NCBI GenBank assembly: GCA_017859955.1
Contig: JAFNAB010000024.1
Location: 1 to 64,000, forward strand
Direction of reading: 5' to 3'
Origin: Holophagaceae bacterium
Lineage (GTDB): Bacteria > Acidobacteriota > Holophagae > Holophagales > Holophagaceae
DNA: 64,000 bases
Shown piece by piece: positions 21,879 through 58,446 of this stretch. The notes beneath the pieces are model-generated. The model was not told the origin of the DNA and made no database searches. It worked only from the letters and a program-made list of their open reading frames with translations. A program made the translations under genes and the position numbers. How positions within the stretch are numbered: the first letter of the stretch is position 1; each line of letters opens with the position of its first letter.

Positions 21879-22894
21879 TTCGCCACCTCGATGGGCTGGC
21901 CGTCCTTGAGGGTGCTGGGGTTATTGATGATTGATTCGTTCTGTTGGAGGCCCGCCCGCACGGGATAGCGATCCCCCTGGCGTTCCCCCAGGGAGAGCCA
22001 GCGGAGCTGGGCCTTGCCGTCCTTGGCCACGAAGACTCCGTTCAGCTCGCCCCGTTGCACCAGGGCGCTCTGGGGCACGAAGGGCGTGTTGGGCCCGGCC
22101 TGGGCCTGGGTGGGCAGGAGCAGCCGGGCGAAGCTGCCGGTGCGCATGGCCGGGCCGCCCTTCAGCACCCGGGCCCGGAGGGCCGATCGGTGGGAGATGG
22201 GGTCGCCGCCGGGGGCCAGGGCCGTGATCTCGGCCTGGCCTGGGACCCCTTCCACCTCGAAGGGGAGCTTCTGGCCCATCCGGAGGCCCTTGCTTTCGGA
22301 TTCGGAAAGGGAAGCGGTCAACTCCAGGGCGCCCTGGCCCTCCAGTTCCACCAGGGGTGCTCCGGGTCCCACGAAATCCCCTTCGTTGACCCGTCGGGCC
22401 TGGATGACGCCGGAGAAGGGCGCCCGGATCTGGGTGAAGGCGAGGTTGGCCTTGACCCCAGAGACCCCCGCCTGGGCCTGGGCCAGCTGGCTCTGGGCCA
22501 TCTCCAGTTCGCTGGGGGTGGCCGCCCCCTGCTGGGCGAGGTTGCTGATCCGCTGGTGGTGGGCCTTGGCGGCGGCCAGGCCCGCTTCGGCGGCCTTGAG
22601 GCCCCCCTGGAGGTCATCGTCCGCCAGACTCACCAGAAGGGTGCCTGCGGTGACCTTGGCTCCCTCCGATACGTGGACCTTCCGCACGGAGGCGGCCATG
22701 CGGGTGGAAAGGGTGGCCCGCTGGGTCGAGGTCAGGGTGCCCGCCACCCAGCCCTGCTGCTCCGTGGGGCCCGACTGGACGAGCTGGACCCGGGCTGTGG
22801 GAAGGCCTGAAGTGTCGGGTTCGGACTGCTCGCGGCGCTGACAGGCGAGTCCTGAGGCGAGGACGCCAGCAATGATCAGGGGCTTCCACCGCAA
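21875..22894 (-). CDS. RND periplasmic adaptor lipoprotein (HlyD/AcrA type)
   Basis: About 339 residues. The first residues form a lipoprotein signal, RWKPLIIAGVLASGLACQR. A barrel-sandwich half with KVHVSEGAKVTAGTLLVSLAD, a coiled hairpin (~90-150), the second half FTQIRAPFSGVIQARRVNEG, and a beta-barrel domain follow. The only start that gives an intact signal is TTG at 22894, which has no clear ribosome site and lies 9 bp from a repeat element (22904-23222). The element may have replaced the native 5' end. The adaptor links the RND pump to the TolC protein. Confidence 0.87.
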   Translation of the reverse strand: MRWKPLIIAGVLASGLACQRREQSEPDTSGLPTARVQLVQSGPTEQQGWVAGTLTSTQRATLSTRMAASVRKVHVSEGAKVTAGTLLVSLADDDLQGGLKAAEAGLAAAKAHHQRISNLAQQGAATPSELEMAQSQLAQAQAGVSGVKANLAFTQIRAPFSGVIQARRVNEGDFVGPGAPLVELEGQGALELTASLSESESKGLRMGQKLPFEVEGVPGQAEITALAPGGDPISHRSALRARVLKGGPAMRTGSFARLLLPTQAQAGPNTPFVPQSALVQRGELNGVFVAKDGKAQLRWLSLGERQGDRYPVRAGLQQNESIINNPSTLKDGQPIEVAK

Positions 22895-22903
22895 ATGCTG
22901 AAA

Positions 22904-23222
22904 TTCCACCACCAAGGCACCAAGGGCACTAAGGGGCACGAAGAAAGGAATCCCTCGCCTCCAGGTGTTCTGGCTAGGTCCAGAAGGGGTGGGGCAGGCA
23001 GCGGAGCGCATGCTCTCCAAGGCCTGCCCCACCCCTCCTGGACACACGCGGGCTTGCCCGCGTGTCCCCGCTTTGCGGGGCTCGCCAGAACACCGCGCTG
23101 GGTCGAAAACGCCCTCTCCGCAGCTCTGTGTGAGATCCCCTTCGGCCCTCCTACCGCCTTCAGAAAGGCTCAAGTTGGCACCTTTGTGATTCCTTGGTGC
23201 CCTTGGTGCCTTGGTGGTGGAA
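22904..23222. repeat. Nested-palindrome element with 26-bp terminal inverted repeats (copy 1)
   Basis: The ends, 22904-22929 and 23197-23222, are a perfect 26-bp inverted repeat built from CACCAAGG-like units. Inside, a 10-bp inverted pair (22964-22973 with 23085-23094) encloses a 21-bp stem with one mismatch (22977-22998 with 23023-23043). Two compact hairpins follow, 23044-23065 and 23066-23080. No convincing protein is encoded. It fills the tolC-adaptor gap. A second element with the same layout lies at 56872-57178. Confidence 0.85.
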
Positions 23223-23268
23223 GTGTCTTTTCCTGATCCGCACCTATCCATTGATTCATGGCTTGTAA

Positions 23269-24573
23269 TCATGGCTGCACTCCTTCGATGGGCTGGCCCA
23301 GGGCAAGGGCGAGTTGGGCTTGGCTGATGCGGAGATCCAGTTGGCTGGCGAGGAGGAGGGCCCGGGCGCCCGAGAGGCCGCTCTCGGCGTCCAGTACTTC
23401 CACCAGGGACAGGAGGCCCTCGCGGTGGCGGGCCTGGCGGAGGGTGCGCACGGATTCGGAGGCGGCCACCGCTTCCCGGGCCGCTTTGAGGCGCACCTGG
23501 GCGGTCTCCACCGCTCGCTTGGCCTCTTCCGCCTCCCGGGAAGCCTGCTGCTCCTGCCACTTGAGGTTCAGGGCGGCGGCGCGTTCGGAAGCCCTTGCCG
23601 CTTCAACCCGGCGGCGCTCAGGGGCCGAGAAAATCGTCCACTTGGCGCCGATGCCGAGATTGGTCCATGTGCCTCCGCCGTTCCAGGTGTAGCGGGCGGT
23701 GCCCCAGGAGGCCGTGAGGCCCACCTCGGGAAGAAGGCTGCCCTGGCTGGCCTTGAGGCCCTCTCGGGCGGCCTGGACCTGGAAGGAGGCTGCCAGGAGA
23801 TCACTCCGCCGCAAGGCGGTTGTGTGATCTCCAGTGATTGGAGTATCGATGGCAGAAATGAGTTCGGGGTCTTGAAGGGGGGCCCCCGTCAGCAGCGCCA
23901 GCGCCGACTGCGCCGAAGCCAACCTTTGCTGGGCTTCCGCCCGTGCTGCCTCGGCCTGGGCCCGGAAGGCGTTGGCCCGCAGGGCCTCGGATCTGAGCAT
24001 CAGGCCCTGGTCCACCCGCGCCTGGACGAAGCGTTCAGTCTCCTGGGCCTGGCGCAGGGTGTCCTCCGCATAGGTCAGCCCCTGCCGGGCGGCCTGGGTG
24101 CCGAAATAGGCCTGGACCACCCCCAGGGCCACCTGCTGCTGGCGGTGGGTCTGGAGGGAGGCCTCCGAGCGGGCCATGGCCTCCCCCGCCCGTCCGGCGG
24201 CCTGGATCCGGCCCCCGGCGTACAGGGGCTGGCTGAGATTCACAGACATCCCGAAGGCCGTCAGGGCATCCGGGTGGTTGAGGCGGTCCGGCATGAAGTC
24301 CGCTTGGCTGATCCGGGCCTGGTTCAGTTTCGTGCCGAACACCATCATCGGCTCATCCGTCCTCTGGAGACCCGCGCTGGTGCCGAGGGTGGGCAGGGCC
24401 AGCGCCTTGAGGGCCCTGGCCTCGGCCTGGGCTCGTTCGACCATGGCGGAACCGGCCTGAAGGCCGGACTGATCCCGCCAGGCCTGCCGGATGGCGTCCT
24501 GGATGGACAGGGGCTCTCCCGCCAGGAGAGACATGGCCGCCAAGGGGAGTAGTAAACTTATCTTATTAACCAT
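23269..24573 (-). CDS. TolC-family outer-membrane efflux channel
   Basis: A 434-residue outer-membrane protein with signal peptide MVNKISLLLPLAAMSLLAG. Two OEP repeats are visible, each with long coiled-coil segments rich in Ala, Arg and Gln. NLSQPLYAGGRIQAAG is the beta-strand plus first helix signature. The ATG at 24573 follows GGGGGAG. It lies 25 bp after the ArsR gene and, with the adaptor and the RND pump, forms a tripartite exporter. Confidence 0.92.
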   Translation of the reverse strand: MVNKISLLLPLAAMSLLAGEPLSIQDAIRQAWRDQSGLQAGSAMVERAQAEARALKALALPTLGTSAGLQRTDEPMMVFGTKLNQARISQADFMPDRLNHPDALTAFGMSVNLSQPLYAGGRIQAAGRAGEAMARSEASLQTHRQQQVALGVVQAYFGTQAARQGLTYAEDTLRQAQETERFVQARVDQGLMLRSEALRANAFRAQAEAARAEAQQRLASAQSALALLTGAPLQDPELISAIDTPITGDHTTALRRSDLLAASFQVQAAREGLKASQGSLLPEVGLTASWGTARYTWNGGGTWTNLGIGAKWTIFSAPERRRVEAARASERAAALNLKWQEQQASREAEEAKRAVETAQVRLKAAREAVAASESVRTLRQARHREGLLSLVEVLDAESGLSGARALLLASQLDLRISQAQLALALGQPIEGVQP

Positions 24574-24598
24574 ATAGGAATACTCCCCCACAAAAAAA

Positions 24599-24928
24599 CT
24601 AGCCCAAGGCCTTATAGGTGCTACGAACCCGCTCGCTGACATGTCCGCAGACGAGCCCACAGATATCTTCGACGAGGGGCAGGACTGGCTTGAAAAAGAC
24701 GCTATTTCCCTGGGGTTCCCGGGTGACCAGTCCCACGCGGGTCAGGCAGGCCAAGTGCTTGCTCGCATTGGCCTGGGAGAGGCCCGCGGCCTCAGCCAAG
24801 GCCCCCTGGCTGAGGGGCTCGCCGGCCTCCAACAGGGACCGGAGGATCTTGAGGCGCGAAGCATCTCCAAGCGCTGCAAAGAGTTCGCTCACTTCTTCGA
24901 TCATGGGATTGGTCATGGGGGGCTTCAT
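24599..24928 (-). CDS. ArsR/SmtB-family transcriptional repressor
   Basis: A 109-residue winged-helix regulator. EVSELFAALGDASRLKILRSLL and LAEAAGLSQANASKHLACL are the ArsR helices, with the recognition helix containing SQANASKHL. There are Cys residues at 61 (recognition helix), 90 and 94 (DICGLVCGH). These could sense metal or thiol/persulfide. ATG 24928 follows GAGG. It heads the efflux/thioredoxin/rhodanese operon and probably represses it through the palindrome at 24941-24962. Confidence 0.88.
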   Translation of the reverse strand: MKPPMTNPMIEEVSELFAALGDASRLKILRSLLEAGEPLSQGALAEAAGLSQANASKHLACLTRVGLVTREPQGNSVFFKPVLPLVEDICGLVCGHVSERVRSTYKALG

Positions 24929-56814: not shown

Positions 56815-56871
56815 AGGGGGGCTTTCCAGGGGCGGGGGTGCCTCAAAGGCATTCGCAACCAAAAGAAATAA

Positions 56872-57178
56872 ATTCCACCACGAAGACTCCAAGGGCACCA
56901 AGTTTCACAAAGAAAAGCCTGTTGCGTTGACCAGGACACTCAGGCCTGGTTCCGGGAGGGGCAGGCGGCGGAGGCACGCAGGCGTGCCGTAGCCACCCGT
57001 CCCTCCCGGAACTCGCACGGCGGCGCCGTGCGCGCCCGCATAGCGGGGTGGCCTGAGTGTTCAGCCAATAGCACTTCGCGGGGGGAGTTGGCTTTCACAC
57101 TCGCCTTAGGCGCAATCATTGATCGCATGTAAACCCTTGGTGACTCCTTTGTGTCCTTGTGTCTTGGTGGTGTAAGTC
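56872..57178. repeat. Nested-palindrome element (copy 2)
   Basis: Same layout as 22904-23222. Degenerate ends of CCAAGGGCACCAAG/CTTGGTG units (56872-56915 and 57130-57175) enclose a perfect 11-bp pair (56936-56946 with 57050-57060). Inside is a perfect 12-bp stem (56949-56960 with 57001-57012), an apical hairpin (56973-56988) and two hairpins after the stem (57015-57031 and 57035-57047). The sequences differ from copy 1 but the order and spacing of paired parts agree. It lies in the gap between two same-direction MFS genes. Confidence 0.8.
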
Positions 57179-57216
57179 GTTTTTTTGCGATTTATCCCAT
57201 TGATTGCGAATGGGTA

Positions 57217-58446
57217 TCACCCCTTCTTTGCGTCCATACGATCCAGTTTCCTGAGTTCAGGCACCAGTCCGGCGGTGGCGGCGACCACGCCCAGGGTCAT
57301 GCAGCCTCCGAAGATGACACTGGGCACCAGGCCCATGAGGCGCGCCACCAGGCCTGATTCAAAGGCGCCCAGCTCGTTGCTGGAGCCGATGAAGAAGCTG
57401 TTCACGGCTGAGACTCGGCCCATCATGTCCTGGGGGGTGAAGCTCTGGACCAGCGTGGCCCGTAGCACCACGCTGACGTTGTCGAAGGCCCCGGACAGAG
57501 CCAGGATGGCCAGGGAGAGGCCGAAGCTCCGGGAGAGGGCAAAGGCGATCCAGCAGGCCCCGAAGGCCGCTACGAACCAGAGCAGGGTGCGCCCCGCGCG
57601 ACGCATGGGGGGCAGGAAGGCCAGGGCAAGGCTCATGAAGACGGACCCCACGGCAGGCGCGGCCCGCAGGATGCCTAGGCCCTGGGGACCGGTCTTCAGG
57701 ATGTCCGAGGCGAAGACCGGCAGCAGAGCCACAGCGCCCCCGAAGAGAACGGCGAAGAGATCCAGGGAGAGGGCCCCCAGGATGAGCTTCCGGTCAAAGA
57801 CGAAACGGAGTCCATCCGTGAGGCTCCTGAAGAGGGTCCCGGTGGCGGGAGTTTGGCGGGGCCGGGGCTTGAGGCGCAGCAGGAAGACCAGGCCCAGAAC
57901 CATGAGGCAGGCCTCGAAGCCGTAGGCCAGGCGGGCGCTGCCGAAGCCGAAGAGCAGACCCCCCAGGGCGGGGCCCAGCACCATGGCCAGGTGCCCCAGG
58001 GAGCTTCGCCAAGTGGCAGCGTTCTGGTATGCCTCCCGGGGGATCAGCTCCGTGCCGAGGGCCTGGGAGGCCGGGCGGTAGAAGGCGCGTCCCAGTCCCG
58101 CCAGGCCTTGGATGGCGTAGAAGGGCAGGGCACTGGTGGGGCTTCCCAGGTTGTAGGCGAAGAGCATCAGGGCGCAGAGCAGCAGCAGGGCACTGGCTCC
58201 CAGGGAGAGCCAGCGGCGGTCCTTCCGGTCGGCGGCGTAGCCCCCCACCAGGGTCAGGGCCAGAAAGGGGACCGCTTCAGCAAGTCCCACCAGTCCCAGA
58301 CTGAGGGGGTCGCGGGTGATGGCGTAGACCTGCCACCCCATGACCACGGTCTGGATCTGGGTGGCCATGAAGACGGCTGTCGTGCCCAGGAGGAACCAGC
58401 GATATTCGGCGTAGTGGAGGGACTGGAAGGGATCGTGTTTGCTCAC
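57217..58446 (-). CDS. MFS transporter
   Basis: A 409-residue, 12-helix transporter starting MSKHDPFQSLHYAEYRWFL. QIQTVVMGWQVYAITRDPLSLGLVGLAEAVPFLALTLVGGYAADRKDRR in pattern carries motif A. LVQSFTPQDMMGRVSAVNSFFIGSSNELG in pattern is typical of the DHA3-like group. It overlaps the MacB-like permease by ATGA and so is the last gene of the adaptor-permease-MFS operon. Substrate unknown. Confidence 0.88.
   Translation of the reverse strand: MSKHDPFQSLHYAEYRWFLLGTTAVFMATQIQTVVMGWQVYAITRDPLSLGLVGLAEAVPFLALTLVGGYAADRKDRRWLSLGASALLLLCALMLFAYNLGSPTSALPFYAIQGLAGLGRAFYRPASQALGTELIPREAYQNAATWRSSLGHLAMVLGPALGGLLFGFGSARLAYGFEACLMVLGLVFLLRLKPRPRQTPATGTLFRSLTDGLRFVFDRKLILGALSLDLFAVLFGGAVALLPVFASDILKTGPQGLGILRAAPAVGSVFMSLALAFLPPMRRAGRTLLWFVAAFGACWIAFALSRSFGLSLAILALSGAFDNVSVVLRATLVQSFTPQDMMGRVSAVNSFFIGSSNELGAFESGLVARLMGLVPSVIFGGCMTLGVVAATAGLVPELRKLDRMDAKKG

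Follow-up and report, generated by a model that had tools for sequence, protein, structure and literature searches.

A layered, probably mobile DNA element with a four-way junction core between the tolC and adaptor genes of a Holophagaceae bacterium

In the 64,000-nucleotide stretch of Holophagaceae DNA that we analysed as a whole (the window), a non-coding and strongly structured segment stands between an OEP/TolC gene (23269-24660, minus strand) and the genes of an HlyD-type adaptor and an AcrB-type pump. By its tolC protein, the nearest named relatives are MAGs of Holophagaceae / Acidobacteriota, which would place the host in or near Holophagaceae. What is this segment, and how did it come to lie inside an efflux operon? 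The original prediction wavered between a non-autonomous mobile element and a structured RNA. Our results make it likely that a non-autonomous, MITE-like mobile DNA element has been inserted between tolC and the adaptor gene, with a core that folds as DNA; what can safely be claimed is a non-autonomous mobile element, built in layers around a conserved four-way junction core.

An insertion at the tolC stop and the adaptor start

In a genome of the same genus (G001), the two genes abut at the junction ATGATGAAGCCC / CCATGATGAAGCCC, where the tolC stop overlaps the adaptor start and the element is absent, and 13 further genomes of the family have similarly tight junctions without it. In the window, 381 extra bases lie between the native adaptor ATG and an AAG codon. 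The element is an insertion at the tolC stop and adaptor start, and the search for empty sites that had been proposed thus found them. The predicted structured stretch of about 320 bp (22904-23222) is real, but the insertion reaches beyond it, spanning about 22886-23268, since the outer flanks 22886-22903 and 23223-23268 are likewise missing at the empty site of G001. The features are as follows:

22886-23268, no strand assigned: whole insertion, 381 bp net, absent at the orthologous junction in G001 and 13 family genomes
22886-22903, plus strand: left outer flank, degraded by comparison with G001 and sibling copies; the TTG at 22894-22892 (minus strand) lies inside
22904-22940, plus strand: left terminal array of ~10-bp units, CACCAAGG flavour
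22963-23095, plus strand: four-way junction core, matched by covariance model R1 (window copy left out) at 86 bits, E = 6e-17
22964-22974, plus strand: core helix P1, 5' side
22978-23043, plus strand: core helix P2, a long stem-loop
23044-23065, plus strand: core helix P3, a hairpin
23066-23080, plus strand: core helix P4, a hairpin
23084-23094, plus strand: core helix P1, 3' side
23186-23222, minus strand: right terminal array, an inverted copy of the left array
23223-23268, plus strand: right outer flank, weakly like the right end of the TSA subfamily (alignment by eye, low similarity)
23269-23272, minus strand: ATGA, the overlap of the tolC stop and the native adaptor ATG, directly outside the element
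56846-57216, plus strand: the window's second copy, bordered by TCA at 56843-56845 and at 57217-57219, with its core at 56934-57062

The perfect 26-bp terminal inverted repeats of the original prediction are present and extend, after one mismatch, by 4 more bases (22904-22934 / 23192-23222; 31 nt, 97%), and its repeated units were recognised as inverted arrays of ~10-bp units at both ends. The fold of the whole stretch has z = -13.2 as DNA of the plus strand and -12.8 as RNA of the minus strand, and in neither case was any of 100 shuffles as stable, so the ordered pairing is indeed not expected by chance. A GC content of about 70% favours stems and the arrays are of low complexity, which could make the whole structure a chance or simple-repeat artefact of GC-rich DNA; given these z-scores, the empty site, an independent model match and the covariation described below, the probability of such an artefact is practically nil, and the copies together with the covariation led us to reject it.

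The insertion also bears on where the adaptor begins. The TTG at 22894-22892 had been taken as its only usable start, which proved wrong: the native ATG (23272-23270) is retained behind a GAAGGAG, overlapping the TGA stop of tolC, and its frame (23272-22883, minus strand) stays open through the whole insertion into the adaptor, adding 129 codons. The second adaptor ATG of G001 is TGG in the window, where the TTG is the nearer start. Either the native ATG or the TTG may start the adaptor; a long N-terminal extension would bury a lipoprotein-like signal. At least one of the six frames is open throughout in 10 of 14 element copies, and since open frames are so common in these GC-rich copies, the read-through in the adaptor frame may be a coincidence.

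This open frame, together with a position inside the operon in which the element would fold in the message, could suggest a cis regulator of the efflux operon selected at this site, acting as an attenuator or mRNA stabiliser in the spacer between tolC and adaptor. We consider this very improbable, given that the orthologous operon does without the element in 14 genomes, that other copies lie beside unrelated genes in all orientations, and that the T-run of a terminator is missing.

The four-way junction core and its copies

Inside the arrays, the helix P1 (22964-22974 / 23084-23094) encloses the hairpins P2, P3 and P4 and so forms a four-way junction. P1 is the outer pair that had been noted as 10 bp and is in fact 11 bp long and perfect; the matched long stem was located within 22978-23043, and the two tight hairpins (23044-23065 and 23066-23080) are as described.

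The covariance model R1, built from eleven other copies, found about 28 cores in the own genome, among them that of the window at 86 bits, while a DNA search of the same genome gave 64 matches, mostly to arrays. The identity of the window core to any other core does not exceed 66%, and the outer ends of this copy are worn; it is an old copy, alone among the cores. The search of related genomes that had been suggested was productive: R1 matched 26 times in G001 and seven times in G003, where some matches are to the opposite strand of a core already matched, and once, weakly, in each of G011 and G018, with the same predicted four-armed fold. Copies in other genomes therefore exist. Under strict filters, the core was found only in the own genome among 297 sampled genomes of the phylum, which did not include G001 and G003; as far as tested, the core is lineage-limited. 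One contig (G000:C188) ends inside the copy L039, which indicates that the repeats break the assembly and that copy numbers are lower bounds.

The copy at 56872 that had been mentioned belongs fully to this superfamily. This copy (56846-57219) sits exactly at the TGA stop of an MFS-like gene (57217-58446, minus strand), with TCA on both sides; in the G001 counterpart, synteny differs beyond the gene and no element follows it. Elsewhere, the core of L165 (G000:C18:19174-19289) abuts a tRNA gene (C18:19079-19151).

The fold of the core is kept by compensatory changes. Across 46 aligned cores, 94.8% of cells pair and 40 of the 54 core pairs have changed on both sides in some copy, which answers the concern that the pairing might lack compensatory changes. 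The covariation is 0.431, compared with 0.141 after shuffling and at most 0.105 when slid, and between clusters of cores double changes far outnumber single ones (2139 versus 358). The alignment was fitted to the covariance model, so that these counts lean towards it; the fold is nevertheless secure, since the effect is large and independent folds support it.

The element is non-coding, and its reading frames vary among copies without being conserved. It had no match in Rfam at gathering score, and at a relaxed threshold the matches fell far below the gathering scores of their families and were nearly all to microRNA hairpin families, no more than chance hairpins. No match was found in the plasmids and phages searched. 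The 23S rRNA intervening-sequence protein (PF05635) was found neither in the own genome nor in control genomes. Open papers on GxxExxY, PDDEXK_3 and structured MITEs held no description of the element, and the family is apparently undescribed.

Pairing of the core as DNA or as RNA

A functional RNA made from one strand would be expected to tolerate G-U pairs and not A-C mismatches. In the core, the non-Watson-Crick counts are 68 G-U versus 46 A-C (p = 0.05), whereas the acceptor and T stems of the tRNAs of the own genome, counted on fixed stem positions, have 23 G-U and 0 A-C (core versus tRNA, Fisher p = 4e-5). G-U makes up 2.9% of the standard pairs in the core versus 6.6% in the tRNAs. Moreover, the insertions have no orientation preference relative to neighbouring ORFs, as judged from the longest ORFs, which are a rough guide in DNA so rich in GC, and neither a promoter nor a terminator or terminator T-run was seen. 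The nearly equal G-U and A-C counts, the excess of double over single changes and the indifference to orientation thus favour Watson-Crick pairing of DNA, and the balance tips modestly towards a core that pairs as DNA rather than as RNA. This step is only an inference, because two other processes might leave a similar record: an element functioning as RNA could have left dead copies whose neutral decay gives similar G-U and A-C counts, and arm-to-arm repair of palindromes could keep the stems matched without selection.

The structured RNA of the original prediction fares accordingly. Its compensatory pairing stood, but G-U counts close to those of A-C and the missing orientation bias, promoter, terminator and Rfam match weaken the reading as RNA. 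The core might still be a functional structured RNA on mobile elements, for example a transcript of the element to which a protein binds, with the DNA copies decaying after insertion. The very strong compensatory change and the slight excess of G-U on this strand (the 68:46 above) are consistent with this; the low G-U share, the frequent A-C mismatches and the lack of a visible promoter, an orientation bias or an Rfam match make it possible but unlikely. If the core acts as folded DNA, it would do so as hairpins or a cruciform of Watson-Crick pairs, and the whole would be an unusual bacterial mobile element whose fold is seemingly kept at the DNA level.

Outer ends, arrays and GxxExxY genes

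The mobile element that had been proposed finds support in the empty site of the same-genus genome, in the many dispersed copies and in the target-site duplications of sibling copies. It is built in layers, with outer ends that vary by subfamily, inner inverted arrays of ~10-bp units and the junction core, and the arrays and core may form a module carried by unrelated outer ends. Almost every core is bracketed by inverted arrays that share one flavour left and right (CACCAAGG, CACAGAGG, CACAGATG, GCGGATG and others); an array score of at least 15 was reached by 89% of cluster representatives, and by 29% of swapped flanks, among which a shared flavour is frequent. Beyond the arrays, the outer ends differ between copies. 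The TSA subfamily of the own genome has the outer end TACGCNTTCGC and, in 10 of 12 copies, is bordered by the same TGA or TCA left and right, and copies of G001 have the ends CTTGGTTATCGAC / GATAACCAG, two of them with the 9-bp duplications AAAAAACAA and AAAAGCGTA. A third type, with the end GTAGNCGTTCAG, was read by eye. The target-site duplications of sibling copies are thus either 3 bp (TGA/TCA) or 9 bp long. At the window copy, TGA is intact on one side and damaged on the other, and its own duplication is not readable with certainty.

Three copies have an unusual arrangement. In L034 (G000:C39), the core appears inverted with respect to the outer ends, as though it had been turned round between the arrays; L240 (G000:C35:5021-5715) is a 695-bp composite with unrelated filler between intact TSA-type ends; and in the right flank of L158 (G000:C51), a TSA-type right end directly past a CGTTCAG-type end suggests nested insertions.

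The outer ends would presumably be where a transposase acts in trans. All 14 matches to the end pattern TSATACSNNTTCGC in the own genome fall in the repeat itself, and none of five DDE_Tnp_1 loci has ends of the element type; as this genome is 95% complete, the absence is not final. With no matching autonomous transposon found, we use the label MITE-like and assign no named family.

The bcr1 element of the Bacillus cereus group is intergenic, present in many copies, non-coding and 100-400 bp long, with mobile features (PMC6542083). The window element shares its intergenic position, multiple copies, lack of coding and mobility, and differs by its inverted ~10-bp arrays and four-way junction core, as well as by its phylum. 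The bcr elements are tied to a TTTAT motif, whereas the duplications of our family are TGA/TCA or 9 bp, and we rejected identity with bcr1 for this reason. Bacterial MITEs such as RUP, NEMIS/Correia, ERIC and Nezha are short, non-coding, gene-adjacent and foldable, with terminal inverted repeats (PMC3733652). Our element resembles them in being short, non-coding and foldable, with inverted ends and insertion with target duplication; the descriptions consulted mention for them neither an internal conserved four-way junction nor the use of one core under unrelated outer ends. REP/REPIN elements, which go with RAYT transposases of the IS200/IS605 type, are likewise dispersed palindromic intergenic repeats in inverted pairs, from which the window element is set apart by its far larger size and by target duplications. 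In the IS5 family, elements of the IS1031 type make a 3-bp TNA target duplication, as does one of our subfamilies with TGA/TCA; in contrast to that family, the own genome yielded no IS5-like transposase bearing such ends. A further tie to IS5 comes from G006, in which an insertion sequence of the IS4/5 group has an array-bounded GxxExxY gene.

Bacteria commonly have GxxExxY genes, which are unexplained, and repeats of this kind often surround these genes. In the own genome and its relatives, many GxxExxY genes (TIGR04256 / PF13366, PD-(D/E)XK-like) have inverted ~10-bp arrays of this kind, with matching flavour on both sides; the window element differs from these array-flanked units in having no gene. 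Within 160 bases on each side, 19 of the 30 GxxExxY genes have matching inverted arrays; none of 18 adaptor genes does, and for swapped flanks the count is 20 of 870 (flanks of 450 bases were too noisy). The protein has G, E, Y, D, E-x-K and Q positions that are invariant or nearly so, as would be expected of a PD-(D/E)XK enzyme. A sequence search of the PDB gave no convincing relative, and viral contigs held none.

Arrays with a payload (the junction core, a GxxExxY gene or nothing) might then form a mobile class of their own that moves as folded DNA, in which the PD-(D/E)XK-like GxxExxY protein would recognise the arrays or cut the junction and the unit would hitchhike in MITEs and insertion sequences. 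We give this rather little credence, and an action of GxxExxY on the core is purely hypothetical. Array-bounded units that contain a GxxExxY gene or else a strictly conserved junction offer a concrete, testable link between a protein family and a DNA structure.

Two arrangements of these genes may be added. In G001 (L143 4150-5400 and L144 1150-2300), a GxxExxY gene and a fragment of one are each enclosed by two directly oriented array-core units, in a composite-like manner. In G006 (L205, L206-L214, L217-L220), the IS4/5-group insertion sequence (DUF4096, DDE_Tnp_1) carries its array-bounded GxxExxY gene downstream of the transposase, and is present in about 40 copies, many of them internally deleted.
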